Shown: one piece after another, positions 17,846 to 59,785 of the stretch
Layout: each line of letters opens with the position of its first letter
Position numbering within the stretch: position 1 is the stretch's first letter
From: Sphagnum magellanicum
Taxonomy: Eukaryota > Streptophyta > Sphagnopsida > Sphagnales > Sphagnaceae
Assembly: GCA_021904315.1 (NCBI GenBank)
Contig: CM038924.1
Span: 16,760,051-16,824,050 of the forward strand
Direction of reading: 5' to 3'
DNA length: 64,000 nt
Translations under genes and position numbers: made by a program
Notes under the pieces: generated by a model
The model's input: only the letters and a program-made list of their open reading frames with translations
What the model was told of the DNA's origin: nothing
Databases searched by the model: none

Positions 17846-18347
17846 CGGCCGCCCCCACTAAAATCATACGCAGCTGTGCCTTAAAGGCTGAGATAGTACA
17901 ACGTCCCCACATGAGGATTCTGTTTTGATTATGAGGTCCCTTCTTCTTCTTCTTCTTCATCGAGTTGATCTGCTTCTGGTTGCAAAGCAATATTAAAGGA
18001 TCCTGCAAATGTGTAGTCTGCAGATGCATGGATGAGCTTCACAGTTTGTCGTAGAGCAGGCGCAGCTCCAGCTGCTGTTGGGACCTGTGATGAAGCTCTA
18101 GGAAGAAGATGCTTGGCCTGAATCTTATCCAGCAGCTGCAGATGTGTACTAGCTCCGTGCAGGGGGATTCAGCTGTAGTAGGAAGATGATGATCAGAAGA
18201 GTGTAGATGAAGTTCCGAGATCAGGCGGAAGCGATTAGCTCTGGATTTTGGGTTGGGATTGAAGGCTCAGGCCACCAGCAGCTGGTGGTAGCTCGAGTTT
18301 GTGGTAGATTCAGATAAGAAGTGGCCGCTGGAGCTGGGAACTGCACG

Positions 18348-21216
18348 ATGACAGGATCTAAAGGAGCATCACCAAGTAGCGTATTCTCATGTTGCGACTG
18401 GAGTGGGAGGAATGGGTCTAGTTCGAAAAGGAATTACGCTCAACTGCGAGCAGCAGCAACTGGGTCTTCCAAGATATTCAATTGGAAAGCGTGCACCAAG
18501 CAGTTTGTGCTCGGGTTGCTGGCTGTGACGAGTCTACTAGTGCTGAGCGCGCGATTAGTCTTGTACATCACGTTCTTTAGCTCCAGACATGCGGCGTTGC
18601 TGGCAGAGCAGTCGCAAGGGTCTGAGCTGCTCATCAAGACAGAAGAGTACGCGGGCTTCAATGCAGGGGGAGCCGCCAGGATGAAAGTCGAGATCGAGTC
18701 GACGCCCCATCTGCTCATGAGGGATCGCGACGACGACGATGTTGTCGCGGGTCGGTTCACTGATCAAGTGCAGCAGCAGCAGCAGCAGCAGTTGCTGCAG
18801 GGGGAGACTCGTACCAAAGCAGCTCTCGTCGTCGGCAGCACGTCGTCGTCCCCCGGTGTCGCGTTTCTGGATGAGCTCACTGTTAACCTAACTGCCGCAG
18901 CAGGTACACTTGGAGCTTCAGAATCTCTAATCCCAGTGCAAATCCCCCTATTCGCTAAGACACCCAAATGAAGAGATGGTAGAAAGTTCTCCGCGATCTC
19001 GATCCGAGAAGTTGTCAAGTTGCAGCTGCGAATTGATGGCTGCTTGCAGAAGCTGTTACAGCAGAAAGTTCTCTCGGGAGCTTAAGAGAAGTCCCACAGA
19101 TTGCTGCAGAAGCTGCTGCTGCATTATTACAGTTCTCTAGGAGGAGACTGCAAGAAATCTTTTGTTCTCGCAATCTTCTTTTTGTTCTCGCAATTTTCTT
19201 TTTCTTTTTCTTTTGTGCTGCGAGAGTAAAGAAGATTTGGGTGTTCGTTTGTTGTTGCGAGCTACAAGCAGATGAAACAGAGGAGCTTGTGGACAACGGG
19301 CCTTACCATTCACGCCGAGTATTCGAGGCGAATTACGAGGAGATGAAGCGCAAGGTGAAGGTATTCGTATACCCACACGACGACAACGATACATACCGCG
19401 ACATCTACAGGGCATGGGACAAGACACCGAGTGGAAACTACGCGAGCGAGGCATACTTCAAGCAAGCACTGATGAAAAGCTCATTCGTGACAAGCAATGC
19501 AGCGGAAGCCGACTTCTTCTTCATGCCGGTATCGATCACAAGAGCACGCATCGACAAGCGAGTGGGAACAGAGGGAGTGAAGGAATTCTGCAAACAACAT
19601 GTAAGCGCAGTGCAAAGGGAGTGGAGCTTCTGGAATCGCAGTGGCGGCGTCGACCATTTCTACCTCTCTTGCCATTCCATCGCGCGCACTGCGATGGAAC
19701 TCGTTCCCCAAGTGCGTCACAACGCTATCCAACTTGTGTGCCCCGCTAGTTACCATCTCTATTACTACATCAGCCATAAAGACGCCTCTGTTCCCCAAAT
19801 CTGGCCTCGCGAAGGTGGCACTCCTGATGGTGTCAAACACACGGCCCAAAGGTATAAGCAACTAACTTAACTTGAGGCAAATTCACAAACACAAAACCTC
19901 AACCAGCTCCACCTCCTTTACTAGACATTAACAACAATCTTTTGCTCCAAGTTGAATTGTGTGCGTGTGTGCGTGTCCAATTTTATGAAGGTAAGTGGAC
20001 CAGTGTTCCTTTTTGGCTTCAATTTTGTCATGTAGCCACAATTAGGACCTTCATTAGGAGGATTTAGTCAAGTTTGGCTACAGGACAGATATGAAGCTCA
20101 AAGTTTTTAAGAATCCTGCAAGTTTTTAACTACCTGTCCTAGGACCACAGAGTCTAGATATGGTGAACTCAGTTTTGTTTTGTTTTTTTTTTTTCCCTCC
20201 TTTCGTTCCTACTTTTCTGGCAAAAAAATTGAAAAAACTTTCGTGGAAAACCCTTTGAGAGAGTCCCAGAAAACCCTTTGAGAGAGTCATAGCTCATTTT
20301 CAGATTTTGCAACAGTGAAACTTTGCACAAATTTTTTTTGACTGAAGTGGACTGGCAATCATCCACGAGAGGATTTAGCCAAATTAATTTGGCTACAGAT
20401 GAGTGAGAGAGAGAGAAAAAAAACTAGAATGTTGAAACCCAGCTAGACATGCCAGAACTTATGGTCTAAATATTGCAATTTTCAATTGTTTTTGGTTCTT
20501 TCCCTGGAAATCTGGCAACAACTTTGTGCCATTTTTTCCCCCAGAAAATTCATTTATAGAATTTACAGCCCTTAGTTTTGTTTTTTTAAATTTTTTTTGG
20601 GGTTACCAAGTGGCAAAATTTCACTAGAAGAAAAAAGATAGAAATGCTGCAGGCTGTAACAACAAGAAGTAGAAGAACAAACACAAAATCCTCATCACAG
20701 TGGGGTGGGAATGAAATTTGCAGGACAAGACTAGCATTCTTCGCTGGAGCTATAAACTCAGAAGTGCGCTTTCAGCTACATGATGAATGGGGAGACGATG
20801 ATGAGATCATGGTGCACAAAGGGAAGGTACCATTCCCGTACTCAGAAGCATTGCTAACAAGCAAGTTCTGTCTACATGTGAAAGGCTATGAGGTGAACAC
20901 AGCAAGACTGGGTGACGCCATGTTCTATGGATGTGTACCCGTAGTGATTGCCAATTACTATGATCTTCCATTTGCGGATATTCTCAACTGGCACAAGTTT
21001 GCCATTGTCATTCCCACTCTCGACATCCCATTGCTGAAGAAAACGTTGAAAGCTGTCACTCCCGCTCAGTACTCCCAAATGCATCAATATGTTGTCCAAG
21101 TTCGGAAACACTTCCAATGGCATTCTCCTGCTCGTGAGTTTGATGCTTTCTACATGGTTATGTATGAGCTTTGGATTCGAAGACATAGTCTACGAAATTC
21201 TTTACAAGACTTATAA
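18348..21216 (+). CDS. GT47 exostosin-like glycosyltransferase (3 exons)
   Basis: This is a Golgi-type type II membrane glycosyltransferase of family GT47 (exostosin domain); plant members build cell-wall glycans, but the donor and acceptor cannot be told from sequence. Proposed exons are 18348-18903, 19272-19851 and 20724-21216, giving 542 residues with consistent phases. The N-terminus is basic, with a signal anchor at about residues 52-77. A stem region follows with a Gln run (about 142-148, pure CAG). The exostosin domain begins near residue 200 (KVKVFVYPHDDNDTYRDIY, then ASEAYFKQALMKSSFVTSNA and EADFFFMPV). The last exon has LAFFAGAINSEVR and KFCLHVKGYEVNTARLGDA, the nucleotide-sugar-binding signature, then VPVVIANYYDLPFADILNW. 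The start is the first ATG in frame (a GTG lies upstream). The exon 1-2 junction is the least certain: acceptors at 19268 and 19271 are both in frame. Intron 2 holds dispersed repeats. Confidence 0.85.
20020..20400 (-). repeat. Dispersed-repeat pieces inside GT47 intron 2
   Basis: Two stretches (20020-20095 and about 20165-20400) end in 'ggatttagtcaagtttggctacag' and 'ggatttagccaaattaatttggctacag' variants. These match the end of the 7795 and 40727 repeat family in reverse orientation. A 20-bp word, 'gaaaaccctttgagagagtc', is also duplicated at 20246 and 20269. None of it interrupts the coding exons. Confidence 0.5.
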
Positions 21217-27200: not shown

Positions 27201-27756
27201 TTAAAACACCATGTACACTTTAAACTCACATAAACTTGACATTAAACACAAAATTTCATATGCAAACATCAACAACAAACTCATGTATGCATGAGATCAA
27301 ACATAAGGCCCTTGTGAAAAATCTATTGAACATTTCAATTTACGAGAACATAAATCATTTGATTAATTTTATTTTTTTCAAAAAAATAGAAAAATATTTA
27401 TTAATCCCCATGATTATGTTTTAATTGTCAAAGCAATTGATAAATTACAACCAACAGAAATTTAAAAATATTAATCTTATCACTAATATAAACGAAGAGT
27501 AAAAAAATCTTAACCTATTTACTTTCTGAAAATCTAACAACTCTTTTCCAATTCAATTTTTTTAAACCATAAGTTTTTTTGGGGGAATGAAATAATTTAA
27601 TCAAGCAATCAATTAGCCTTGATTTTTATTTGCACCTTGATTGGGTTGATTGATGATTTCAATAAAATCATTACCAATTTTTCTATAAATTTGCATGTTA
27701 TACACCAATTTCAAAATTACTAAACATATGTGATGTTATTAATAATTTTTTTTTAT

Positions 27757-27758
<2 letters not shown>

Positions 27759-27789
<31 letters not shown>
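27759..27789. repeat. (CA)n microsatellite
   Basis: About fifteen pure CA units, followed by AT-rich DNA. Confidence 0.95.
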
Positions 27790-27791
<2 letters not shown>

Positions 27792-29009
27792 ATATTTGTG
27801 TAAATCAAATTATTATAACAATAAAATTATTTTATAAATTATATGTTATCCAAAATATATATTTTGAATCTTCTAATGAAATTCATGATGGTCAATTTCA
27901 TTCATTTAAACAATAGTTGATAAATGACATAATAATAATTTAATACTCACATTCTACCTCAAGTTTTCTGAAATAATAATTTTTATTTCATTTGTTATGT
28001 ACATCAACATCAACATTTCAAAATTACACTAAAATCACATTGCACTAATCAATGCACATGAAATTGTAATTCATTTAAAATCAAAATGCTTTCTGAAATG
28101 AATGTACATTTTTTCATTCACACCTTTTTGTGTGGTTTGATTTTAATAATAAGCAAATTATGAATTATTTCATCATGAAATCAAGCATATAAAATCTTGG
28201 GTGGGCCAATATTAAAATGAATCATGAAATATGTAACCACAATTTAATTTTTCATGTTTTTAAACTACAAGTTGAATTAATGTTCAAAATATTTTGTAAC
28301 ATTTATATCATACTTTTTTAATGTACTATAAAAAAATTTAGATAAATTCTAAATAAACTTAATGAATGTAAAATATTTAAGAACATTTTGAAAGAACATA
28401 TTATTTGATTATTTAATGGACTTCTAAAAGGATTTCAAAATGACATATTTTATGGTTTTTTTGAATAATAACATCATGTAACATTTTTTTTGGGTTATAA
28501 ATTTCATATATCAGATTGTAAATTATGATTTTAAAACTATTTTCATGGAATAATCAATTCAATTTTATCAAGTCATCTTGATTGATTAACCCACTATTTT
28601 TCAACAAAATAAAAATAAAAATTTACAACATTTCATTTTTATTGTGGATTCACCAAATTAGATAGATTCTATTGACATTATTTTTAATCATTTAACTCTT
28701 AGGTTTAATATCATCAAACAATAACCCCTTGACTCATCCATCAACATAATGCAAAGTTCCCAAAGGATTCACACATATTTCTTGATGTCTTTAAAAAGAA
28801 TATCTCTCCTAGAAAAAAACATGGATCTCCCATTTACTCCTTAAAAGTGGGAGGTATATTACACCTAGTTCACAAATTATACCCATGTGTAAGCACTATC
28901 TTCCTCTTGCACCTTTTGGAATCTATCTATATTTAGGTTCATATAACATTCACCATAAAAATTTCAACTATTTTTTAACCCAAAATATTTATGAAAAATA
29001 AAATAAAAA

Positions 29010-29150
29010 CCTATAACATTTTCCAAATTCGTATATGTGGTTCAAATAGGTAGCAAAGAATATATAACAATATTTTAAATTTTCATTTCATATTTTTTAG
29101 TAGCCAACTTATGGATGATTGTTATGTTAGCTACATCACCAAAAATAAAA
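29010..29150 (+). repeat. Partial dispersed-repeat copy
   Basis: It shares 'aggtagc.aagaatat', a 'cattt.catatttt..agtagccaa' block and 'ttagctacatcac' with the copies at 7795-8030 and 40727-40980. It is more diverged than either, and its palindromic core is broken. Confidence 0.5.
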
Positions 29151-31255
29151 TAAAATAATGAAATACATTCCCAAAAATTGAAATTGGACTCGACTATCAC
29201 CTCGTCCTAGGCCCCCTTTATTTTGTTAATGCCTCCACCTTGGGGATTTTCCCTAGACATAAAAACTTGATCTAATTTAATTTCATAATATTTGCAACTA
29301 CATTGCAAAGCATACTCACACTCCTCCTAGCTTTTGAAGCACCTTACAAAATCTATTAGATGTCTCCAAGCTAGGTCACATTGGGGGTTACATTGCTTTC
29401 AAGCTTGGGAGCTCTAGATGCCACCCCCCATTGCCATGCCCTTAGATGAGGTAAAGCATTTAGAGAAAATTTCTAGTGTATTTGGAGGGACCTTTTATTT
29501 CTATGAGAATCCCTATTGCATCACATTCTCCCTTTACAGCCATCTCTCTATCCATTTAGAACAAGCAACTGAATTACTCAAGCAAAAGAAAGTATATGTG
29601 TTCTTTCAAAAGACTCATAAGATCCCAAAATGCTTAGATGGTGACTTACCTCTATTATCCTAGTTGGCCTTGCCTACCAAGGCAAGGATATTGTGTTTAG
29701 ATTCATTATAGAGTATATAGTAGCTTAAGGGATTTTGGCCCCTAGATAAATGGTCTTATTTTATATGAGGATTTTTGAAAGATGATATTTTGGCTTGTTC
29801 TTTGTTCAATTGGTAGGTGCCCTATAGTGGGGAATTAGGGTGCTACAATTTTTGTCTTCTAGTCTTGCAGCAAGTTATTCAACAATGTAGCATTTGGTGA
29901 TTTCAGGACCTACAAAGCATTGGGGGTCGGGAGGCTCATGGTTTTTCTTGAAGCACAATAGAGCACAATGGTGATCCCATGGCGTCAGGGCCATATATAC
30001 TGGTTTCCTTTCTCTTGGACCTCAATGTTTTGTAGTAGAAGATTGCAAAATATCATTCTGAATCAAATGTAAATATATCATCTTGGATGTGGAGCTTTTC
30101 AAAGCCCTCTTTGTTTGTTTCGTGTGTCAGTCTCCTCTTTTTCTTGTTTGCTGATATGCTGTCTGATCTAAAATCTCATAACCCGTATTAGCAGGTCATG
30201 TATCAACTCTTCAGTCCAAGACTTAAATCATAAGTATGGAGAAGTCCTCAATACTTGTGAAAAGATGAATCTAGATTCAGCCTCTATCAGCAAATTAAAC
30301 ATGCAGGGTCAAGACATTCTGTTTGAATTTGATTGTGTTTTTTTTTGGGTCAAAACTCAGCAAAGTAGTCATTGATGTTGCCTCATGTTGCTTCCAATTC
30401 CATATTTGTTTGTGCCCGACAAGTTTGTTCAACAATGAGAGTCATGACGTTGGCTCTGCAGTAGCATGCATACAACAACTCAGCTGCAATCCTGCAGAAG
30501 AGGTAATTAGCAACACAACCAGCCTTGTCAAGGGTTCAACACCACTTGAGGGAGAATTATGATTATGTCACTTGTCAACAGGAGCAACGGAGACAGATTA
30601 GAGATATGTTGAACGGTCCTTCCAAGACTACAAGAAACTTTCACATTTTTGTCTTCTAACAGCCATTGTTGTCATGCAAACCTACAAACAATAGATAAGC
30701 TCTCTCCTAGCAAAAGACATGTGCCACGAAATGTATATGAAAAACCAACAAGCTGCAATATGGCTGCAGAATGGTTCATCGCATCAAACTGCATCACTAT
30801 TTCTACAATTTGGCAATCCCAAGTCTGTATTGTGCCTCTCACACTTAGTTTTCATCAAATATCTATCCTTTACCAAGAATCCATTAGGCTAGACCTGCAT
30901 ATTTCAAAGACAAGGGATCAAACAAATATTGAGCTTGTGGTGTTCATAAGAAAAAAAGTGTAGATCTTCTTCTTGGTGCTTTTATCTTGCACCAGGCTTT
31001 AAGAATTGGTTGCAGATAGTGCCTTCAGATAACATAAGGTACAAATACCAAATGCTAACAAGGCACTACCTACTATAGATGACTCATTTGTTCCATAGAG
31101 TGCTGAATGCAGATGTGCCTCCCATTCCAAAATGTTCTAGAAATGCTATTGACATCCAGGAAAATTCCTCTACCTCTGAACTGGGTTGGATTTTGACACA
31201 ACTACAGAAGCTTGCCTTGCTGAGCAGATATGTAAATTGTCATCCTTTCAGGTTC

Positions 31256-31475
31256 AAATTCATTACCAACCTCTGCAATCAATCTTCAGAAATAGCCCAG
31301 GGATGCACACAAATTCATTACTGACCACTGCAATAAATCTTCAGAAACAGCCCAGAGATGCACACAAATTCATTACTGACCATTGCAATCAATCTTCAGA
31401 AATAGCCCAGAGATGCACACAACTTCATTACCAATGACTGCAATAAATCTTTAAAAACTGTGTAAAGATGCACAC
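31256..31475. repeat. 55-bp tandem repeat, four copies
   Basis: Units begin at 31256, 31311, 31366 and 31421, each 55 bp. Landmarks are 'ttcatta.c', 'ctgcaat.aatcttcagaaa' and 'agcccag.gatgcacacaa'. The first three copies are close to each other and the last has drifted. A fifth partial start is at 31476. There are no variable spacers, so it is not CRISPR-like. Confidence 0.85.
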
Positions 31476-31875
31476 AAATCCCCACCCAAGACTGTCTTGG
31501 GAAAATTCAAAGGTTTCTCACCTTTTACAACTTGGGCTAAGGTTGCTCAAGGTGTGCACTGCAAGCTTGGCTTGAGACTTGACCTCACACACACATCTGC
31601 TCTTTGCTACAGTTTGAATCTGAACATGTGGCTCAATGTTTCAGCTTCCAACATCAGAATGTCGTTTGTAAAGAAGCTGGAACTCTGCACTTGTTCAGGT
31701 GGAAGAGGAAAATGTCACAACCATCTTGCTCTTCATTGCTCCTCTCTATATATGATCTATGACCTGCATACATAGTACATGGCAAAATGTGATGAAACTG
31801 AAGGTTGAAAACTCTCTTTGACTCCTCAGTTGGTCATTAAGCCTTTTATGACAATCTCTCTAAAAAAAATGCAGA

Positions 31876-41190: not shown

Positions 41191-41479
41191 AGAGTCTGCA
41201 TACAGACCTTCTTCTTATATCGATCCACATGAGTACCCAACGAGTTTGGTTGTGTTTCCAATCCAAAGACATTGCTACCACCACCAAGGAAGAGATTTGC
41301 GACGTTGAAATGGCACAAGAGTCGAGAGATGCCGCTGTGTTGATTGCGTCCGGAAAGCCCACAATAATGCTGCAGTAAGCAAACTGCGAGAGAAACTGTG
41401 AAGCAACCCTGGAGAAGAAGAAGAAGAAGAAGAAGATAATAGGTTCAATCTCTTGGAAGGGAGTTTGGCAGACATACTT

Positions 41480-41480
41480 C

Positions 41481-41513
<33 letters not shown>
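41480..41513. repeat. (GA)n tract in 5' leader
   Basis: A pure GA run ends about 20 bp before the ATG at 41534. GA/CT tracts of this kind are frequent in plant 5' leaders. Confidence 0.9.
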
Positions 41514-41517
<4 letters not shown>

Positions 41518-41533
41518 TCTTCTTGTGTCGAAA

Positions 41534-42035
41534 ATGTTACAGGTGCAGCAGCCATGGGCGAGGCAGCAACAGATGTGCGCGCCATCGCTGTCGGGTTCAA
41601 CACCTCTTTTGCTTCACAACTTTCTGCAACAACGGCAGCAGCGGAGTCTTCTTCTTCACGGCGGCAGCGGCATAGCCGCTGCCGTCATCAGAAGTTGCGC
41701 TAGCTCTGCTCGTCCTTCTTCTCCCTGGTTGCTTGTAGATCTGGGAAATCCTGGTTCCAAGTATCAAGGCACTCGTCGCAACGTACTTCCCTCCCTCAAA
41801 ACCATTTCAATTCCATTGTTGCTCTTCTTCTTCTCGATCTCTGATTTTCTTCCTGAATGGGTGAGACAAAGAAGAATCTCTTCTCACAGGCAGGAATTGC
41901 AGTTCTCATAAAGGATGAAATATTTTCTGTGTTGTGTTGTGTTGGTTCAGGTAGGGTTTGAGATGATTGATGCGATTGCACAAGCAGAGAACATCGCTCT
42001 CACAACTATTCAACACAAGGCACTTCTTGGCAAAG
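41534..42035 (+). other. Peptidyl-tRNA hydrolase/CRS2 domain fragment (two exons)
   Basis: Exons 41534-41782 and 41951-42035 translate to a Ser/Arg/Gln-rich leader, then [19 protein letters not shown] and [18 protein letters not shown], ending [11 protein letters not shown]. This is the N-terminal ~50 residues of the bacterial-type peptidyl-tRNA hydrolase fold shared by chloroplast PTH and the splicing factor CRS2. The rest (MLAKPQTYMN, the Asp-containing DDLDL block, GGHGGHNG) is not found downstream. The catalytic His of the usual 'GTRHN' is Arg here, and the Gly of 'LVGLGNPG' is Asp. It cannot be a working hydrolase. It may serve as a plastid-targeting leader for IspD. Confidence 0.8.
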
Positions 42036-45000
42036 GTTAGAAGCTCACAAAACCCTGTGATAAACCACCTCCTCCTTCCTTCACAATCCTCAAAACCATT
42101 CTGCAACTTCTTCTGCAGCAGCAGAAATGGTTCCCTTAACAAATGCCTCTGAACATGGCTTTCACTGGATATTGCAACATAATTACACTGTTCTTCATTT
42201 CAAACTTTTGCCGTTTTCAGCTTGATGAAACTGTGTTTTGTCTGAGTTTTACATTCTCTTTGTCCGTTGTGCTTCTTTGCAAGGAGAATCTAAGAAATGA
42301 TCAAGAGCTGGAGTTTTAGAGAATTGATGTGAGTTGGAGTTGTTTCTCTCAGTGATAGAATTGCTAATTTCTTGCTGGAAATTATTAGCCTGTGTTGATT
42401 CTGTCACAAAGATTTGTCCTCGCTTTGCAGATCTGGGCTGATGACTGTATGCACCATTTGGGCCCTGAAGAGATAAAAATCAAAGCTTTACTGCAATTTG
42501 AGGAATGATTTCTCCTGCCTGCATGCAGGTCTACTTGCAAGGAGGCGCTATCAAACTCCTTGTTTTCTGCCTTGTGCTGCATTGAATGCTGGTGCTCTAG
42601 CTGATGACCAAAACACAGAAGAGGTTTGATTCACCCAGTCCTCTTTCACTCATGAAATTGGTCATGTGTGATTTTGCAAAATTGCAGTTCATTGAATTCC
42701 TCCACAATGATATTTCTTCTCTTTTGATTGTTACCTGCTTTCTCATTCTTCTATAAACTTTGAGGTTTTTTTGTTCTAGGGTTTTTCTATTTGAGATGCA
42801 CTCACTCCAGTTACTCCAGTTCTACCTTATTTACTACTTCTGATTTTGTGGGTAGTTTGCCAAACCCTGGTTCTCAGGTAAGCATTTTAGTTCCATAATT
42901 TTGTGTTGTCAACACTCTTGCCTTCAATAGTTGGCATCTCTGGTTGACAGAGTAAATGATTGTTCATGCAGACTGCATCTGGGCCAAGTGTTTCTGTCAT
43001 CCTGTTGGCTGGTGGCAAGGGCAAGAGGATGGGGGTAAGTCACTCTCAACACAACTTTGTACAGAGCTTAGAGATGCCTAATTTCTCTGCAATTTCATAG
43101 ATATATAAACCAGGTTAGAAATGGGCTGTAGGAGGCAGGCATGCCCTCTGTCAGAAGGCTGCATGCTTGATAACTGCAGTTGTCTTCTTTCACCTTGTAC
43201 ATGAACAAGTCACATAATCAGCTTTTAGTTTATTCATATACTTGGGTTTTCCTGTGATTTTTTGTGGGGTTTAGAGAAGGTTGCAGATACTATTGATCTG
43301 TAAGTTGCTGGCTGGTGCAGGCCAACATGCCAAAACAGTATCTCCCTTTGCTGGGTCAGCCAATTGCACTTCACAGGTACAATGAGCTCCTTTAGGTTTT
43401 TCTTTGCTTGATAGGATCATCATCTTGGATGCATGTCTGGAAAGCTAGATGCTGTCCTGTCTTAAAGCACATGGAGTAGTACTAGCCTTGGTTTTGAATG
43501 GCACCTCTGTCATAATATGGTTTAAGAATTTTTCTCTTGTGGAAGCTCTGATATGATGGTGGCGGGATGGAACTTCTTGAATGGCAGTTTTCACACATTT
43601 GCTAAGATGGAGGAAATTTTGGAGATTGTGGTAGTATGTGATCCATCTTACAGAGACATTTTTGAAGGTTTGCCTCTCCAATGCTCTGTGATGACCAAGC
43701 AAATATTGAGGTGAGGATAGTATGTGTCTTCAATGTTGAGAATCGAGTATATGTGAATTTGATATCAATGAATGTTTGGGTCTGTCTGCCTGCAGATGCT
43801 GCAAAAACTATTTCCATCCCTCTGAAGTTTGCTCTTCCAGGAAAGGAGAGGCAAGATTCTGTCTACAGTGGGCTCCAGGTACTAAGGGTTCATCATGTCT
43901 TCAGCTTCTGAAAATATTTGAAATAAAAAACTCAAACAGCTGTTATGTTCCTGAAGAAAAATATGTGGGATAATGATGCATAGTTCAGACTGCCAACTTT
44001 TTTAACAAGTCTTGGTCCAGAGTTCAACAATGAATTGTTTTACTCCAGAGACACAGTGTGGTGGCCATATTGTACACTGCTGATTATTGGCCAATTTTAG
44101 TCTCATCAGGCAGGCTAATTTGGTGTTGGGCTTTGATTCTTCCTCAATTGAAAACCATCTCTATCTGCTCACAAATGTGGGATTCTTCTTCAATGGAAAA
44201 TCAGTTTTATCTGCTCACAAAGATGGGAATTGTTCTTCAATTGAAAACCACTTCCATCTGCCGGCAAATGTGGATGCTTGAAGCTGCTTTTTCAGCCTGG
44301 AAATCTCAACAGTCTTGTGGTTGTCAAATTTTTTCTTTCACAGGAAATTAACAAACTGGCAAAGCTTGCATGTGTGCATGACTCTGCACGCCCTCTTGTT
44401 CTACCCAAGGACATTTCAAAGGTTGGTGCACACCTTTCCATTATGCCCCAAACAAATGAAGTTGTTAAAAAGTTCACATCTGATTCAGCAAATTCAAAGT
44501 TCTCTTTTGGCAAGTTTTATTTACAACTTGTTTTTATACATATTTTGGCACACTGATTTGTCGATGATATTTACACAGGTAATAAAGGATGCAACTGCCC
44601 ATGGTGCTGCAGTACTAGGAGTGCCTGTGAAGGCCACTATAAAAGAGGTGGGCACACTTTGCCAATTTCTTTCTATTTTCCTCCTGTCAATGTGTGTTGT
44701 TTTTGCAGCTCAATTCTATTCAGGTAGACTTAAATTTGGTAAGTATATGGAGATGGGTATTTATGTAAGCATCTCCACCACCAGCAGTAAAATGGCCTGT
44801 ACACACTATTTTGGATAAGTATGATACTTAAAAAAGTAAATGTGAAACTGGGTCTAGACCTGTAAATATGATCAAGATACATTGATCTCCACACATGCCA
44901 GTAAAAGGAAGTAACTTCTTTTGATTAGCCGACCATAATGATTGGCCCGGTTGGTGGCATTTAAACAGTCAGACAGGATATTGTTGAATTTATCATGTTT

Positions 45001-46172
45001 ATGGGTGGAGATGGGAGACCATAAAACTATGTTTGATGTGATAAAACATCGGTTGAGGTCCACGTAAGGGGTGTGGGTGGAAATCCTCTTCTGAAGACAA
45101 TTTTTTTTGGGTGGCTGAAAACTGCTGCTCCTACTGAAAAATTGGTTGCCAACCTGTTTGGCACAGCACTGATTATACTTTTCTTTCACAGGCAGGAGAT
45201 GATTTATTTGTCACAAGGACATTGGATCGGCGGCTTTTGTGGGAGATTCAAACTCCACAGGTAGAAAAAAATCCTTACATACACTGTGATCTGTTTCTAG
45301 ATGAAGATTTGTAAGCAGCTGCAATTATCACATGAAAATCAGAGCAAATGAAGATACTCACTATCCTACTGTAGCAAAGTGCATTGAATTAGGTGGCTAT
45401 GTTTTGTGACGGATTGGGGTGTTGCAGGTAATTGAGCCTGGTCTGCTAACAAGAGGGTTTGAGCTTGTTAAGCGGTAATTCACTACTCCCTTCTTTCCTT
45501 CCTCTTCCACATTCAGTCTCATAAGTAGACTTCCTTAAGCAGTGAGGGCTTTCTAATAACGCTCGTTAAATGTAGTCAATCTTTTAAGTAGACTTTCTTA
45601 AGCAGAATGAACTTTTAAAAATGCTCCTTTCAATGTAGGTGACTGTTGTGAATGTTGGAATGTAGGGAGGGTTTTGAGGTTACGGATGATGTATCGATTG
45701 TGGAGTATTTAAAGCACCCTGTCTTCATCACACATGGCTCATATGCTAACTTGAAGGTATTGTGAAACACTGCCTTATTAACTTGTTTAAGCCTTGCAAG
45801 AATGCAAGCCATTGCTGCATCCTTGAGTCCATGATCTCTCTCTCAATTGATACATGAAGCTTCTACCATGCTAGTAGTTTAGGTTGTTGCTATGAATTCA
45901 TGAAAGAAATGGAAATATGGTTGTGAACTTACCCCTTGATTGTCTTGATACTGCATTGGTTGTTCAATGCTGGTGTGGTCATTTGTAGCAGAGGTCAAAA
46001 CCAACTCATGCTTCTCTTATTTCCTGATGAGATCTAGATTGTCTCAGTAACAAAATCTGCCTTACCATTTACTTGACAGGTCACAACTCCTGATGATATG
46101 CTTGTGGCGGAAAGGATATTGTCGCAAACTGCAGCCACAGATGCTGAGAAGGCTGTTGCATCCACAATCTGA
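41534..46172 (+). CDS. ispD: IspD/MCT with captured PTH-type N-terminus
   Basis: 2-C-methyl-D-erythritol 4-phosphate cytidylyltransferase uses CTP and MEP to make CDP-ME in the plastid MEP isoprenoid pathway. IspD exons: 42972-43034, 43321-43376, 43588-43667, 43796-43878, 44344-44421, 44579-44647, 45192-45260, 45428-45474, 45666-45756, 46080-46172. They give [12 protein letters not shown] (nucleotide-binding loop), [100 protein letters not shown] and [14 protein letters not shown], a complete domain. The first IspD exon has no ATG. Three upstream exons (41534-41782, 41951-42035, 42529-42623) join in phase to give 385 residues. The first two encode a transit-like N-terminus plus the start of a peptidyl-tRNA hydrolase/CRS2 domain. 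The IspD part is sure; the fusion is inferred from phase and lack of another start. Confidence 0.88.
44141..44280. repeat. 46-47 bp tandem repeat in an IspD intron
   Basis: Three imperfect copies carry 'ttcaattgaaaacca', 'atctgct' and 'cacaaatgtggga' words. They lie inside the intron between the exons ending at 43878 and starting at 44344 and do not affect coding. Confidence 0.75.
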
Positions 46173-49700: not shown

Positions 49701-52457
49701 GAAGACACATGAAGGAGAAGAACAGAGGACAGACCATGCCATACTCTTCAGCATCCCAACTGCACAACACAATACTTCTTCTGGGTTTCCAACCCTTCTG
49801 TACAAGCTCACCCAACTGCTGTCCAACCTGTGCTTACCCAAATTCCCACTGTCAGATCAGTACCCCTATGCCTGTAAGCTGAATGAGGGAGTGGCTCAGT
49901 GCAAAATCTGTAGTGCCTCCCTCTCTCATGGATTACCAGTGAGACATGAGTCCAGTCTTACTGGGACAAAGTGTAACAGAAAGATATAGTACTTGGGACC
50001 CCTCCAAGAACAGGCTCTCAGTTATTCTGGCTTAGCCAACCTCTCCTTTCCTGTGTCTGCATCTTGTCAGTTTCACATGCTGCTCAAAATGACCTTCATG
50101 AAATTGCCAGCACAAGCAAATGACATAGAACTATTATACCAGTAGTATCAATAATCAAACACACATGCTCAAATGAGCTACCCTCAGTGACATGCAAGAT
50201 GTCCAGAGAAGAGTTAGACCTCAAGAAGTGAGGCAGTGCCACTGTTGGGATCCACAGCACCAAAAACCCAAGCATCACGGTGATTTCCTAATATCACATA
50301 CCTGGTGCACAGATATCAAAAACATCAGCTCATGGGATGCAACATATGCTCAGTGTAGTATATTCCATATAATAGTTCTCATTCCAAATGAGTTTTACTC
50401 CCATGCTTTTGTGACTGTTCTCGACAGACACCCACCAAATTGTGCAATTCTTGTTTTTAACATTCCTAAGAGACAACTTACCTTTGTGCATTAGGAAGGA
50501 ATTCCAGCAATCCCCTGCATGCTCATCCTGCAGAAGCTCAATATGTTACCCAATGTAGGCCTTTTTATCAGTAGAAGTGCAGCAGAATACCTATCAGGTT
50601 CCTCTGATCCTTTTATGACAGCAATCACATTGCGGATTCGCGTCACAGTCTGATTGGCCTGCAAAACAAATCCCATCATTGTTCAATTCCTCCAAGTTTA
50701 TTGACGCTTTACTTGGTTAAAGCTCAGGCTACATACATGGTCTGGTCACTACTTCCATTGCCAGTACTCCTTGTAAGGAGAGTACAAAGAAGCCAGTAAA
50801 GACATATGTGCATGCTACACTACCAGCTTAAAAGAGGACAATTAAATCATAGACAGCTTGAGCAATCCATGATCCGTTCTCAGAAGCACAGAACATGATG
50901 AGAAGGAAATGACACCACTCTAAGTAAAGATCAAAAACCAGGCACTCCTCACACAGTGGCTCTCACAAACATTGGACCCAAGAGGAGCAAAGTGGAGGAG
51001 ACAAACTTACACTAAATGAGAGGTTGAGTACTCCAGGTCCTCGTCCAAGTCTATATTGAGGCAAATCCAGTGCACCATGCCACTCAGCTGGTGAGACAGG
51101 ACCACCTAATGATGCCAGTATAGGCTTTGCATCCTCAGCAGAAATGGGCAGTGATGGAATGGTAGGCAGCATTGCTTCAGGGTCTGAGGCTGAAATCCTT
51201 TCTGCTTTGGGAGTACTAGGCCATCCTGGAGTGAGAGGATCTCCCACTCCTCGAGACACAGTTCCCCTCTGAATGCCACTGGGAGGCAGCCATTGACTAT
51301 GTGGGTAAACTTCTTGAGTATAGTTTGCTGCATAATCTTGGGGATCTGAGTAGATTATAGCAGCAACTGCTCCTGCATTGGCTGCATTCTCAACAATGTC
51401 TCCTCGATAGATGGCATGATACCTTGCAAGGACAATGGTGCCTTTGACATCTATCCCCATTGCCGCCAGCTTCTGGAAATCTTCCAATCTCCCATAGTTG
51501 GCATACACTACCTCACCGGTCACATTACCAGAAGGAGCATACCCATGAAATGTTGGTATCACCTTTGGATTCTGACTGTAGAGATCTCCTTCCACAGGTT
51601 CCTCTTTCAGTGACAGCTCAAGGGGTGGCTCCTGTGTGGGGCTGGTCGTAAGGATAAGCGAGCGGTGCAATGGGTAAGAGAGAAGCACATCATAGTCTGT
51701 GTAATGGACTGCAAGGCCATACTCCTGGAATCTCTGGAAGACATAGTCAGCAGTCGCAAAATCTTCAGGAGTGCCTGCCACATGTGGCTCTTTGGTGAGC
51801 TCAAAGAGATGATTTCTTATGCTTGCATTGTTCACAGCTCCCATGAATGCCTTTTGCCATTGCTGCTGCTGCTGCTGAAGAAACAACCACCCAAAGAAAA
51901 ACCCATTTCTTAGCCAACCTCTGAAAACAAATCTGATCCAAGCAACGTGCACAAGCTATAAAAACGTCACTGACTGCAGAGCTGTGCAAACTTCGATCCG
52001 CAAAACTAACAATTTCCAGCTGAGATTTGACAAAGTAATAGCTGCCGACGAACTGACCCAACCAGAATTGCAAACTGGTGAGCCGCAAAAGGTGGTGCTA
52101 CAGTGGAATTGCGGCAGATTTTGTAAGATCTTAAGACACAAGGACGAAGAGGGGAAGGAGAAGAGGATGGGGGGACGGGAATACATTAGCTCCGTTAGCG
52201 CGAGCCCGGGCTGGCATGATGATGTTGAACAGTGTGACGAGCAGCGCCAGGAAGATCGCAGCCAGCAGCAGTAGAAGCCTCCAGTTCATGCGCTTCTTGG
52301 AGAGGGACGGAGGAGCAGGAGTATCGTTGAGCAGAGGTGGTAAGTCCCTTGCGTCGTCGAGCTGCTCTCGACGGTCCTTGCTACAAAACACACACGGTAC
52401 TGCGCGCAGGAACTGACAGTAGTGCGCCGCCGCCAGCCATCCTTTACCCTCCGGCAT
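46794..52457 (-). CDS. AMP1: AMP1-like glutamate carboxypeptidase II (M28 family)
   Basis: Plant GCPII-like proteins (AMP1, VP8, PLA3) are endoplasmic-reticulum membrane proteins that influence meristem size, leaf initiation and miRNA-directed translational repression; their substrate is not settled. Thirteen exons, read from the minus strand: 52457-52185, 51874-51011, 50658-50591, 50301-50220, 49827-49735, 49531-49379, 49170-49096, 48839-48752, 48338-48252, 48032-47944, 47803-47678, 47302-47237, 46997-46794. All phases agree, giving 755 residues. One signal anchor lies at 61-80. The PA domain is in exon 2 ([21 protein letters not shown]-like [19 protein letters not shown]). The M28 zinc ligands are all kept: H409 (GNHRDAW), D419 (VDPNSG), E457 with base E456 (WDAEEYG), D485 (NVDCGVSG), H572 (YHTAYD). 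Spacing of the first four equals human GCPII (H377, D387, E424/E425, D453). The C-terminal exons form the TFR-like dimerisation domain. Confidence 0.92.
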
Positions 52458-55177: not shown

Positions 55178-58100
55178 TCACAAAGGAGTTGAAGGTTCGT
55201 GGTCTCTGTTGGAGTACAGTTGTGACTGCGGTTGCTGTAAAGATGGAGGAAGTTGCAGAGTGAATTCTATGCTGTTTGGTGTATCTGCTGAGGAGTTTGT
55301 CATGGTTTGTGTTGTTGAATCATAACCACCACATTTGTTTCTTTTGCCCATCTCCAGGAACTTTTTCATTTCAGTTTTCAGAAGACTCAAGTTGATGGGC
55401 TTCATGAGGACATAATCCATGCCTACTTCAAAGCATCGCTCCCGTGTTTTTGAGTCGGAGTTTGCTGTAAGTGCCGCAATGATGGGTCTTTCAAACTTGC
55501 TCCACTTCTCGACTATCTCCCTTGCAACAGCAAAGCCATCCATCTGCAAGAAGAAACACCTCAAAATTGTCACTCAGTCAAGTTGGTGAAGAGAACACTT
55601 CCTCCAAAAGAAATACCTCAGCATTCAAGATAGAACAAGTTATGTGACTGCTAGGTACAAATGGTGAGCTATATCAACGAACTTTGAACTCTTCAGCGTA
55701 CTTTGGAATGAGTGATATTGTTTGTCATCTTTTGCACTTAGAGAGAGAGAGAGAAAAAGAGAGAGCAAGTATTTGACAGTTCTATTGCTTACTGCAATCT
55801 GCTCCTTGTCTCTAAACAAAGACGCGCATACAAGAATGGTATAGTACAAAATTGTGACCTCAGAAATGCTAGACCTACCTCAGGCATGCAAAGGTCTAAG
55901 AGAATGATCTGAAATGCAGAAGCTCCATTCTCAATGAGAATATCCAAGCATTTTTGACCAGAGTCAACGACAGTTGGAATACATCCAATGCTGTCAAGCA
56001 GTCGCCTGGTTACAATACGATTTACAGAGTTGTCATCCACAACCATCACCTGTCCCATCCGATCATGACACAGTTATCCATATGCAGACGACACAAGCAA
56101 ATGGAAATCCTCTTTGAAGCCATGGTAGTAAACTACCAATGTAAACAAAAGCCAATCAGGACATGCCAGTTTTGTAAGGTTTGTTGAGATCCCCTCACCT
56201 GGATGTTCTTCATAGTGGATGGAGAGACAGCTCTTTTTGGCGTCACTGGAACGTCTGTGGGTTCACAGTAAATGCCAATGCACAGGTACAATTTGCAAGT
56301 GGTTCCTTTACCAAGCCCCTCACTCTCCAAACATATCCTTCCTCCCATTAGCTGTGTCATTAAACAACAGATTATCAGGCCTCCCATCAGGAGCAGGAAA
56401 AGCTTGGCGCTCTAGTCCTTATCTTCCAGTGAAATGTTGTCTTAATGCTGAAGAGTGTGATGGAGCCACAATGGGTGTAGGTAGTATGTTGTGGATTTAG
56501 TAGTACCTGTACAAACTTCTTGGAGATAGCAAGGCCCAAACCTGTGCCTCCAAAGTTACGAGTCGTGCTGCTATCAGCCTGAACAAATTTGTTGAATAAG
56601 CGAGGCATGTCCATGGGTTTAATGCCAATGCCAGTGTCTTGCACATCAATGTGTAGGTACCTGTACTCCAGCGTCATGTTTGGAACTGACTGGCACTTGG
56701 TATGTGCAGATCCTGCAGCTGCTCGAAAGTCAGTTGTCGTGCCCAGATACACTGACAGCTTCACTTCTCCTTCCAGTGTGAACTTGATTGCATTCCCAAT
56801 CTGTCCAAACCCCCAATCTATCCACACAATTCATGATATTGTACATGAGATCTCACTGCAACTTTCTGGAGCAACTTTGCAATTTCATTACTTGTGTTGC
56901 AAGAGAGACAAATCAGAGATACATGTGTGCAGATCAATATTCAGGCTCCCTTGCTGTGAATCAATTTGTGCAGAACCTCATCTCTCTTCCGTTCTTTTAT
57001 GTACCATTCTATTCTCAGCCCTGACCAGATCAGATGAACATTTATACCACATTGAGCAAAATTTGGACAATGCGATTCCTGTCACCAAAAGCATTGATTG
57101 GCAGTTCTGGTGGTATGGACATGGTGAATGCAAGCTGCTTGTTGATGGCCAGTGGTTGTATGATGCTTTCAACTTCTCGCAGCAAAGTATGGAGGTCAAA
57201 AGCTCGCACATCCAAAGAGAGGCCACCACTTTCAAGCCGAGAGAAGTCAAGGATATCGTTTATCAATGATGATAGTAGACTACTGCTTTTACCCATTGTT
57301 TCAACCATAGCCTTCTGGTCAGCTGTCAAGTTAGTTTGCAACAGAATGGAGGCAAGAGCTATGAGAGCATGCATTGGTGTCCGCATCTCATGGTTCATAA
57401 TCGCAAGGAAGTCATTGCGGGCTGCAACAGCTTCTTCAGCCTCCATTCTAGCAGTTTCAAGTGCACGGTTCTGAGACATTAGTTGGTCCTGTGCATGCAT
57501 CGACTCCTCCAACACTGTTGCATGTGACAGGGCCACTGCAACCTTCAAACGCACAAAATTCAGGTATCACACACAGTGATGAACTTGCACGTATGTCTCT
57601 TTACAACCCAGAAGGTGAAAGTTGTCAGAAGAAGGATGTCATGCCTGCCTACATGTATGATGAATCTCTTGCCTAAAACCATTGCAGCTAACTACCATTG
57701 CAATCACACTGCAGGCACTTCCAACAATGTTTGGTTTGATGAAACGAGAAGGGCGGAAGACACACCTGGTCAGCAACTGCAGTGACCAGATCAATTTCAT
57801 GACCATGCCATCTCTTTCCAGGATCATTTTGAAGTGCAAGAACTAGCAAGGCATATGAAGAACTAACAATAGCACTTTGGTTGTTACCGCTCCCAATCTC
57901 CACACCATTATCCTTGAAGTACGATGTCCTCATGTAGGGCAGCCGTACGGCAACAACTCGGTCCTTCTGAAAGCAATCTCCAAGATCTCTGTGGCAGCTG
58001 TGCTTTGTGAGGGTTGAGTCCATTGGAACAAGCATTGCTCCTTGGGTGTTGAAAATCTGCACAAGAGACATAACAGCTCTGTGCCTCAGGTTGTGAGTTC

Positions 58101-59785
58101 CTAATGCACATGCATGCATGTTGTAAAATCTGCAGACAGTGTGCTAGACTGCAACTACTTGATTCATTCGACGACGTAGATCGAGGAGGAGAAGAGGGGT
58201 TGTGGAACTGAGACAGCAAATCTTGGAATTTGGGTGAAGTGGATCATACTTTCTGAAGGTTTTCATCGGTGATTGGAATGGAGATTGGGACAGGATTATG
58301 ATTATCCTCAAGTGCATGAGTGAGCTCCATAGTCTCACCATCAGCACTGGGCATCCAGATGTTGCAGCTTTCCAGTGTAAGTGTATGTGCCAACTCCACG
58401 AGAGTGGTCTTCAAAATGGTATCTCGGTTGAGTGTGCTCCTGATCTCGTGTGTTAACATTCGCACATGACTTCCTGTTTCTTCCTTCTTTTTCATAACTA
58501 CTACCTCCTTATCGAGCTCTGCAGTCTAGGCAGACAGCACACACAATCAATGTTACAGCTCTTTAGAAAACAAAATCATTGGCATAAAAGATGCACCAGT
58601 TTTGGTGCAGTGCACAGATTCTGGAGAGAAAAAAGAGGAGGATTTGCAATCGTCATCAAAACTTACCTTGATAGCCAACAATATCTCCCGCTTCTTGACT
58701 GATAAAACTTCAGGAATGACCCAGCTGAGAGTGATTGCTGTTGCACATGATACAAAAGCAGTTGTCACTTTGAAGAATGTCATAGTTGCAAATGCCAAAG
58801 CTGAAGTAGAACCAAGAGTCCACAGACTGATAAGATGTGTCAGTCCACAGAGAACAATGAAGGCACCAAACTGTGCCACAATCCACTTGTAGGGAAACAC
58901 CTGCACCAATTAACTGCCATCAATTTTTTGTCTGCAACATCTCTCTGGTGTAGCAACATAGTTCTGATGCACTGTTGGCTCTACACGTAGGCTCCTACCT
59001 TAATCTGTTGAATGATTTGACTGTCAGCGAAATGCTCATTCTCTTGCTGTTTGCTGACATCATTGCCAAGCAAGGAGCTGCAATCCTAGTTTTCACAAGC
59101 TGCTTGGGAAAACTAGGATCACAGCTCATTACTTGCCTCACCTCAAGAAGCAGGCAATTGAAACATGGGATTTCTTCCATATGTTTTAGACAAAAGAAGA
59201 GTTAGCAATGGGCACCTGTGCCTTGTATATGAAAAAGAGGAGCTCGATTGGGATGGAGAAGTAGGCAAGAGCAATGAGCACATCAGAGGCAAGTTGCCAA
59301 TGTGCCATTTGCACATAATTGTGGATCTGAGGATGAGCTGCCAGGCAGTTGCGACAATTGTTTGAAATCTCGAACACAAGAGATGTGCAAGGCTCTGTGC
59401 AATATTTGGACATGCTCCTTGAAGACGGATCCACAAGCTGTTGCTTTGGATCAGACATCATCAAATCCTTGAGAAGAAGCATTTCTTCTTCTGGAAAGAA
59501 CTGCCTCCTCATCACTACTGCTGCCACACCAATTGTCTGTTGCGAGAAGAAGAAACAGATGCTGCTGTACAAGACAAATGTCCAAAGCTTGAGCAGCATT
59601 TTGTCCATTGCTGTTGCACAACCACAAAATGCTAGCTCCTCATCACATATTTGCAAACAAAAGAGATCGCTCAAAATCCTGTGTGCAATAACTCCTTTCT
59701 CCTCTGCAGCAATTCTTGGAAACACAAGCGTGCGAGGTCCAAATTTCAGATTCTCGAGCAAAAGACGAACACGTTGAAAAGACAT
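55178..59785 (-). CDS. ETR: Ethylene receptor, ETR type with receiver domain
   Basis: Ethylene receptors sit in the ER membrane, bind ethylene through copper and act through CTR1. Nine exons from the minus strand: 59785-59216, 58900-58667, 58525-58250, 58056-57766, 57542-57048, 56800-56507, 56351-56199, 56049-55879, 55543-55178. All phases agree, giving 949 residues. A second ATG at 59608 (residue 60, [20 protein letters not shown]) starts a signal-like segment and may be the true start (890 residues). Binding domain: disulfide pair C144/C147, D168 and Y175 ([20 protein letters not shown]), copper ligands C208 and H212 (VLCGLTHLI). A GAF domain spans about 250-457. The kinase is canonical: H508 in [20 protein letters not shown] box [40 protein letters not shown]. 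Receiver 772-925: DD776-777, D823 (LLDLCMPE), T854, K876 (MKPI). The extra N-terminal hydrophobic segment recalls subfamily II (ETR2/EIN4), the intact kinase subfamily I. Confidence 0.93.

Follow-up and report, generated by a model that had tools for sequence, protein, structure and literature searches.

Exon shuffling is a known way for genes that move from an organelle to the nucleus to gain targeting peptides. The presequence of plant cytochrome c1 derives from GAPDH exons, and those of rice mitochondrial rps11 were copied from other nuclear genes. The locus described here, an IspD gene of the moss Sphagnum magellanicum preceded by the 5' exons of a peptidyl-tRNA hydrolase (PTH/CRS2-family) gene, would resemble both cases in that whole exons of a coding 5' end are taken over to direct a protein to an organelle. 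It differs from them in that they are mitochondrial, whereas the organelle here would be the plastid, and in that donor, copy and breakpoint are found in one genome, with apparently two recipients. A plastid case is that of nuclear rpl32 in Populus and other Malpighiales, whose transit peptide comes from a duplicated Cu-Zn superoxide dismutase gene, SOD1 (PMC8018952). The likeness would be that the 5' exons of a duplicated gene for a plastid protein give another protein its targeting sequence by exon shuffling. The recipients differ, rpl32 having moved from the plastid genome without a transit peptide, whereas IspD is a resident nuclear enzyme of the MEP pathway that must already have had one. 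Also, unlike rpl32, the IspD fusion includes about 47 residues of the donor fold. Transit-peptide capture from a duplicated plastid gene is already established; what would be new is a resident enzyme as recipient and a donor used more than once. Our literature search, which covered open-licence papers and is weak evidence of novelty, returned nothing judged relevant on a PTH-IspD fusion, on IspD in moss, on chimeric genes with transit peptides in moss or on Sphagnum PTH, and nothing on duplicated targeting signals.

The stretch of DNA that we analysed (the window) is 64,000 nucleotides long and corresponds to bases 16760051-16824050 of contig 18. On its plus strand, a 13-exon model at 41534-46172 gives an open frame of 385 codons with all 12 introns, of 128-544 nt, bounded by GT-AG. 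Exon 1 (41534-41782; 249 nt, phase 0) is PTH-derived and encodes the initiating methionine, an N-terminus without acidic residues and the start of the PTH fold (a stretch of 19 residues), with the catalytic histidine changed to arginine. It is followed by the first intron of PTH (41783-41950), whose donor is weak in both copies (1.5 bits in the window, 2.5 bits in the intact gene on contig C1), and by PTH-derived exon 2 (41951-42035; 85 nt), which ends in phase 1 at GGCAAAG/gttag with a donor of 7.4 bits. Intron 2 (42036-42528) is PTH-derived up to 42508, and a 31-residue linker exon (42529-42623; 95 nt) restores phase 0. The catalytic part of IspD then extends over ten exons, at 42972-43034, 43321-43376, 43588-43667, 43796-43878, 44344-44421, 44579-44647, 45192-45260, 45428-45474, 45666-45756 and 46080-46172, the last of which holds the stop codon. 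The sequence-only reading had joined two PTH exons, the 95-nt linker and the first IspD exon in matching phases with GT-AG borders, and our coordinates agree with it, the frame being open throughout.

The PTH exons supply the first 111-112 residues of the fusion protein. Its Pfam PTH match covers residues 66-114 (E 2.9e-11), the last two of them already encoded by the linker, and the closest solved structure to the N-terminal part is maize CRS2 (PDB 1RYB; E 6e-15, residues 63-114). Where a member of the PTH/CRS2 family has a complete domain with the catalytic histidine, the fusion covers profile positions 1-49 of 183 and has arginine at that position. The IspD domain is complete (residues 150-370, profile 1-220 of 221, 183.6 bits against a cut-off of 27, E 5.8e-54), and the closest solved structure to the C-terminal part is Arabidopsis IspD (MCT, 1W77; E 2e-103, residues 149-371). 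The catalytic domain is complete in both the Arabidopsis and the moss protein, the latter differing in its PTH-encoded beginning. The rest of PTH is missing from the window, as previously claimed: with the C1 paralogue as query and E up to 10, tblastn returned exons 1 and 2 (E 2e-37 and 8e-13) as well as two chance matches to the opposite strand (E 2.5 and 9.0).

The resemblance to PTH is not due to chance, since an intact PTH gene that shares 86-90% identity with the segment is present at another place in the genome (438,994,042 bases in 31 contigs). This gene lies on the minus strand of contig C1 at 8326282-8328990; it has eight exons and encodes 260 amino acids that match Pfam profile positions 1-182 of 183 with 216.5 bits, including TRHN, NLSG, YDDLDL and GGHNG, which we take to be its catalytic motifs. 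The PTH part of the window is a partial duplicate of it, with 86.0% DNA identity over 41219-42263 and 90.0% over 42369-42508. Differences amount to 21 of 243 bases in exon 1, 3 of 85 in exon 2 and 10-15% of sites in the non-coding blocks. Homology ends at 42508, 20 bp ahead of the linker, and the window 3' of this position gave no match above 100 bits in 100 kb of C1; the breakpoint thus lies between 42508 and the linker acceptor. We also considered that this acceptor might be the 3' end of PTH intron 2, for which the similarity is too short to decide. In the window copy TRHN has become TRRN, with loss of the catalytic histidine (presumably His20 in E. coli numbering), and GLGNPG has become DLGNPG; PTH catalysis is therefore not what is kept. 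As expected of transit-peptide capture by 5' exon shuffling, there is an intact donor elsewhere in the genome, and its 5' exons stand directly upstream of the recipient, matched in phase and with an open frame.

Similarity to the C1 locus is also found farther upstream. Blocks of 72-86% identity at 27698-31790 (plus strand) are collinear with the C1 PTH locus, with two out-of-order repeat matches at 29663-29798. Between these blocks and the PTH exons lie 9.4 kb, mostly repeat. The region 32.3-40.6 kb resembles dispersed genomic copies (50 matches listed; the best 40 of 4493 candidates were scored). Synteny of the whole block with C1 was rejected, as collinearity upstream of the breakpoint extends over no more than some 4 kb of C1. 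Part of this upstream region (30844-31790) has more copies at C2:12.906 Mb and C15:17.030 Mb (73-77% identity), with no match to the PTH exons at either place.

The starting point of IspD itself bears on what the copied segment could do. A 242-residue IspD query found ten matches in the genome, all of them the ten exons described above and none at another locus; the Pfam IspD model also gave one match, at this locus, in an exon-wise search that is insensitive and could miss a very divergent copy. The first in-frame ATG of IspD falls within the conserved GKGKRM loop, and no ATG occurs in the unspliced frames that lead up to 42529 and to 42972, which bears out the claim that the IspD exon has no start codon of its own. 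We then enumerated first exons as single-exon ATG-to-donor candidates. Starting at 40.6 kb, there are 29 with 20 residues or more that can be joined to the linker; of their donors, the strongest three (8.8, 7.4 and 7.4 bits) sit inside the PTH copy, and the next three (5.4, 5.3 and 5.3 bits) at 40.7-41.0 kb. With a minimum of 35 residues, the interval 21.25-42.4 kb held 11 single-exon candidates that passed the donor filter. Three of these 11 have a loosely targeting-like composition, and each of the three lies over 7.8 kb away from the linker on its upstream side. IspD needs an upstream ATG, for which the PTH copy is the only source with homology behind it.

We consider it quite probable that a duplicated PTH 5' end was captured by IspD as promoter, start codon and targeting sequence. 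The 5' part of the gene (flank, exons 1 and 2, most of intron 2 and the phase-1 donor) would have been duplicated from C1 and have landed directly ahead of an IspD exon, in the one IspD gene detected, whose native promoter and first exon would have been displaced or lost. IspD would now be transcribed from a PTH-derived promoter, with PTH exons 1 and 2 giving the start codon and a targeting presequence, spliced in phase to an IspD exon that would still encode the last part of the transit peptide that IspD once had. Cleavage in the region of the linker (at a stretch of 12 residues) would, once the protein is imported, release a normal IspD. A resident and probably essential metabolic gene appears to have had its working front end replaced. 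The earlier proposal that exon shuffling gave IspD a PTH-derived 5' end is strengthened by the donor gene and the mapped breakpoint. More than a new N-terminus is involved, since the copied sequence includes 315 bp or more of 5' flank (41219-41533, plus strand). This flank, a putative promoter and 5' UTR, is part of the block of 86% identity (38 of 287 aligned sites differ), so that the copy probably brought promoter and start codon along.

As to targeting, residues 1-68 of the fusion protein contain no acidic residue and have a basic fraction of 0.07, which places PTH exon 1 just under the threshold of our composition filter, a crude one that we set ourselves. The PTH-derived part may serve as a plastid-targeting N-terminus. 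The presequence may also be composite, made of the PTH part and the tail of the former transit peptide of IspD. The linker is probably the remnant of that transit peptide, including its cleavage region, and contains a cleavage-like stretch of 16 residues, a motif judged by eye. Against the genome, both as DNA and as protein, the linker region matched only itself, and an exact 23-mer from it had no match in viral contigs.

PTH and IspD could also be joined by another path, with exon 2 spliced to an alternative linker at 42780-42877 (plus strand), exon 1 spliced in frame to IspD exon 4, or a mixture of these. We regard this as rather unlikely, its probability overlapping with that of the capture just described. 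Within 42100-42900 there are 27 phase-compatible open stretches, and the highest splice scores belong to 42780-42877 (16.7 bits) and 42529-42623 (14.8 bits), which have the same entry and exit phases and exclude each other by frame. The alternative linker has the higher splice score, and the direct junction is permitted by an exon 1 that ends, and an exon 4 that begins, in phase 0. First-order resampling of 42100-42900 yielded a candidate at least equal to the better one (16.7 bits) in 3 of 300 cases. Codon usage separates the two: 42529-42623 is coding-like (+0.161 per codon, a score that 9% of 481 non-coding open stretches also reach), whereas 42780-42877 is intron-like (-0.409 per codon, reached by 85% of them). 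As judged from these scores, 42780-42877 is less likely to be the linker than 42529-42623.

Another alternative is that the PTH copy is a dead 5' fragment in or beside IspD, spliced over by a gene whose native first exon is farther upstream (below 27.4 kb) or unrecognised. The pattern of change in the copied exons speaks for this idea. With three outgroup copies taken together (C3, C4 and the copy at C1:16.3 Mb), exon 1 shows 16 changes in 243 sites on the window branch against 4 on the C1 branch (one assigned to neither), and exon 2 shows 2 against 0 in 85 (one assigned to neither). The corresponding figures are 22 against 29 in 524 for the introns (12 assigned to neither) and 20 against 9 in 275 for the flank (four assigned to neither). 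The asymmetry in exon 1 is kept with C3 or C4 as single outgroup (15 against 2 of 239, or 13 against 2 of 231), whereas the C1:16.3 Mb copy as sole outgroup makes both branches equal (5 and 5 of 133). Exon 1 is near the neutral rate on the window branch, with no constraint visible, and the C1 branch is mostly constrained. Between the two PTH sequences, dN is 0.075 and dS 0.085 (NG86). Targeting peptides usually evolve fast. Two in-frame indels separate C1 from the window copy; they say little on the window branch because the simplest account of one is a deletion in C1, while the C1:16.3 Mb copy shares the other. In a neutral simulation, the start codon, frame and splice sites of exons 1 and 2 all remained intact in 11.6% of runs (P 0.116). 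Together with the near-neutral rate, this neither proves nor excludes a coding role.

A dead fragment would also fit with the three other copies of the same region that are dead, and with a block that could have inserted into the first intron of IspD. However, the intron would have to exceed 15 kb, with repeat making up much of it, against the 128-544 nt of the model, the search for first exons gave no convincing candidate, and a second in-phase case, described below, is left unexplained. We therefore hold it to be unlikely. Finally, an assembly error joining two loci at about 42.5 kb is highly improbable, as the junction is internal to a contig of 18.3 Mb, the copy differs from C1 at some 10-15% of non-coding sites and is thus not a misplaced C1 read, and frame and phase agree across the junction.

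The PTH 5' end has been copied elsewhere in the genome. Besides the window copy, we found four more ectopic pieces, at C3:17.561 Mb, C1:16.309 Mb, C4:12.890 Mb and C14:10.550 Mb, which makes at least five in searches that scored the best candidates only; weak matches to exon 1 were also seen at C13:8.665 Mb (E 0.11) and C14:15.718 Mb (E 0.15). Three of the five are broken. The C3 copy has a stop at codon 5, the C4 copy has a frameshift in exon 1 and stops ahead of intron 1, and the C14 copy lacks exons 1 and 2 and has exons 3 and 4. Each of the two open copies precedes a plastid-type gene, in sense orientation and matching phase. The copy at C1:16.309 Mb has lost intron 1 through a large deletion and no longer encodes the beginning of the PTH fold; what is left is a single exon of 208 nt, in which the PTH ATG and N-terminal part continue directly into the tail of exon 2. 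This exon ends at the same phase-1 donor as the window copy (GCAAAG/gttag) and is followed by an intron of 498 nt and a phase-1 acceptor that opens a gene with an S1 domain (Pfam E 1.1e-10). A nine-exon model of this gene, at C1:16.302-16.311 Mb on the minus strand, is open for 575 codons; its closest solved structure is chloroplast ribosomal protein S1 (5x8p; E 2.5e-23), a match that suggests a function in plastids. Immediately upstream of the acceptor there is an in-frame ATG (MKLPAAALAEI), which is a possible PTH-independent start.

Compared with C1, all five small indels of this copy in coding sequence are multiples of three, one of them shared with the window copy, against 6 of the 16 that fall in the flank and intron 2 (these counts leave out large deletions, including the one that removed intron 1). 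For the indels that are its own, the comparison is four of four in frame against 6 of 16 in non-coding sequence (Fisher p 0.043); for both copies together, it is six distinct coding indels, one of which is most simply a C1 change, against 10 of 27 (p 0.007). A rough calculation puts the chance that a PTH copy comes to stand in sense and in phase ahead of a gene at 0.0048 per copy and 2e-4 for at least two of five, on our own assumptions of 25,227 genes in 439 Mb, a reach of 500 bp, one strand and one third of phases. A fairer figure, by our own arithmetic, is about 0.02 for at least one of the other four copies, because the window copy itself drew attention. The capture of the PTH 5' end is probably not unique to IspD.

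Non-coding divergence is 10-15% for the window copy and 20-30% for the C1:16.309 Mb copy. The two junctions may be two stages of one process, the younger IspD case keeping a remnant of the PTH fold without its catalytic residue and the older S1 case having had it cut out. One could go further and see in the PTH 5' end a portable cassette for expression and targeting, repeatedly copied, that has taken over as front end in two or more plastid-type genes (among them IspD and the S1-domain gene), the leftover catalytic part of the donor being first disabled, as in IspD, and later trimmed, as in S1; we give this generalisation an even chance of being right. The value of the system is that donor, copy, breakpoint, dead siblings and a second, older junction are all present in one genome, which makes the frequency of targeting-signal swaps, and the existence of preferred donors, directly testable in mosses.

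Some observations on the remaining copies and on the surroundings of the fusion can be added. The C3:17.561 Mb copy looks AT-enriched by eye. The C14 copy was considered as the complement of the window copy in a reciprocal translocation, a possibility that we rejected since it carries a 64-bp upstream piece overlapping the window copy. It also continues into a fragment of MFS_5 that is interrupted by an in-frame stop, and was treated as a separate broken mosaic. Positions 1432-2430 of C14:10548622-10551738 combine a scrap from upstream of PTH, PTH exons 3 and 4 and a piece of an MFS_5 transporter, whose possible start codon sits in sequence from PTH intron 4. Within the window, an IspD intron holds three copies of a 46-bp tandem repeat (44135-44273). 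The upstream neighbour of the fusion consists of exons for an exostosin-type GT47 glycosyltransferase (18318-21216, plus strand). Downstream of IspD, on the opposite strand, lie an open frame with a PA domain (50966-51955; Pfam 9.4e-14), which we assume may belong to a gene of the glutamate carboxypeptidase II/AMP1 type, and a gene of the ethylene-receptor type (55181-58909), with ETR1_N, HisKA, HATPase_c and receiver domains in separate open frames.
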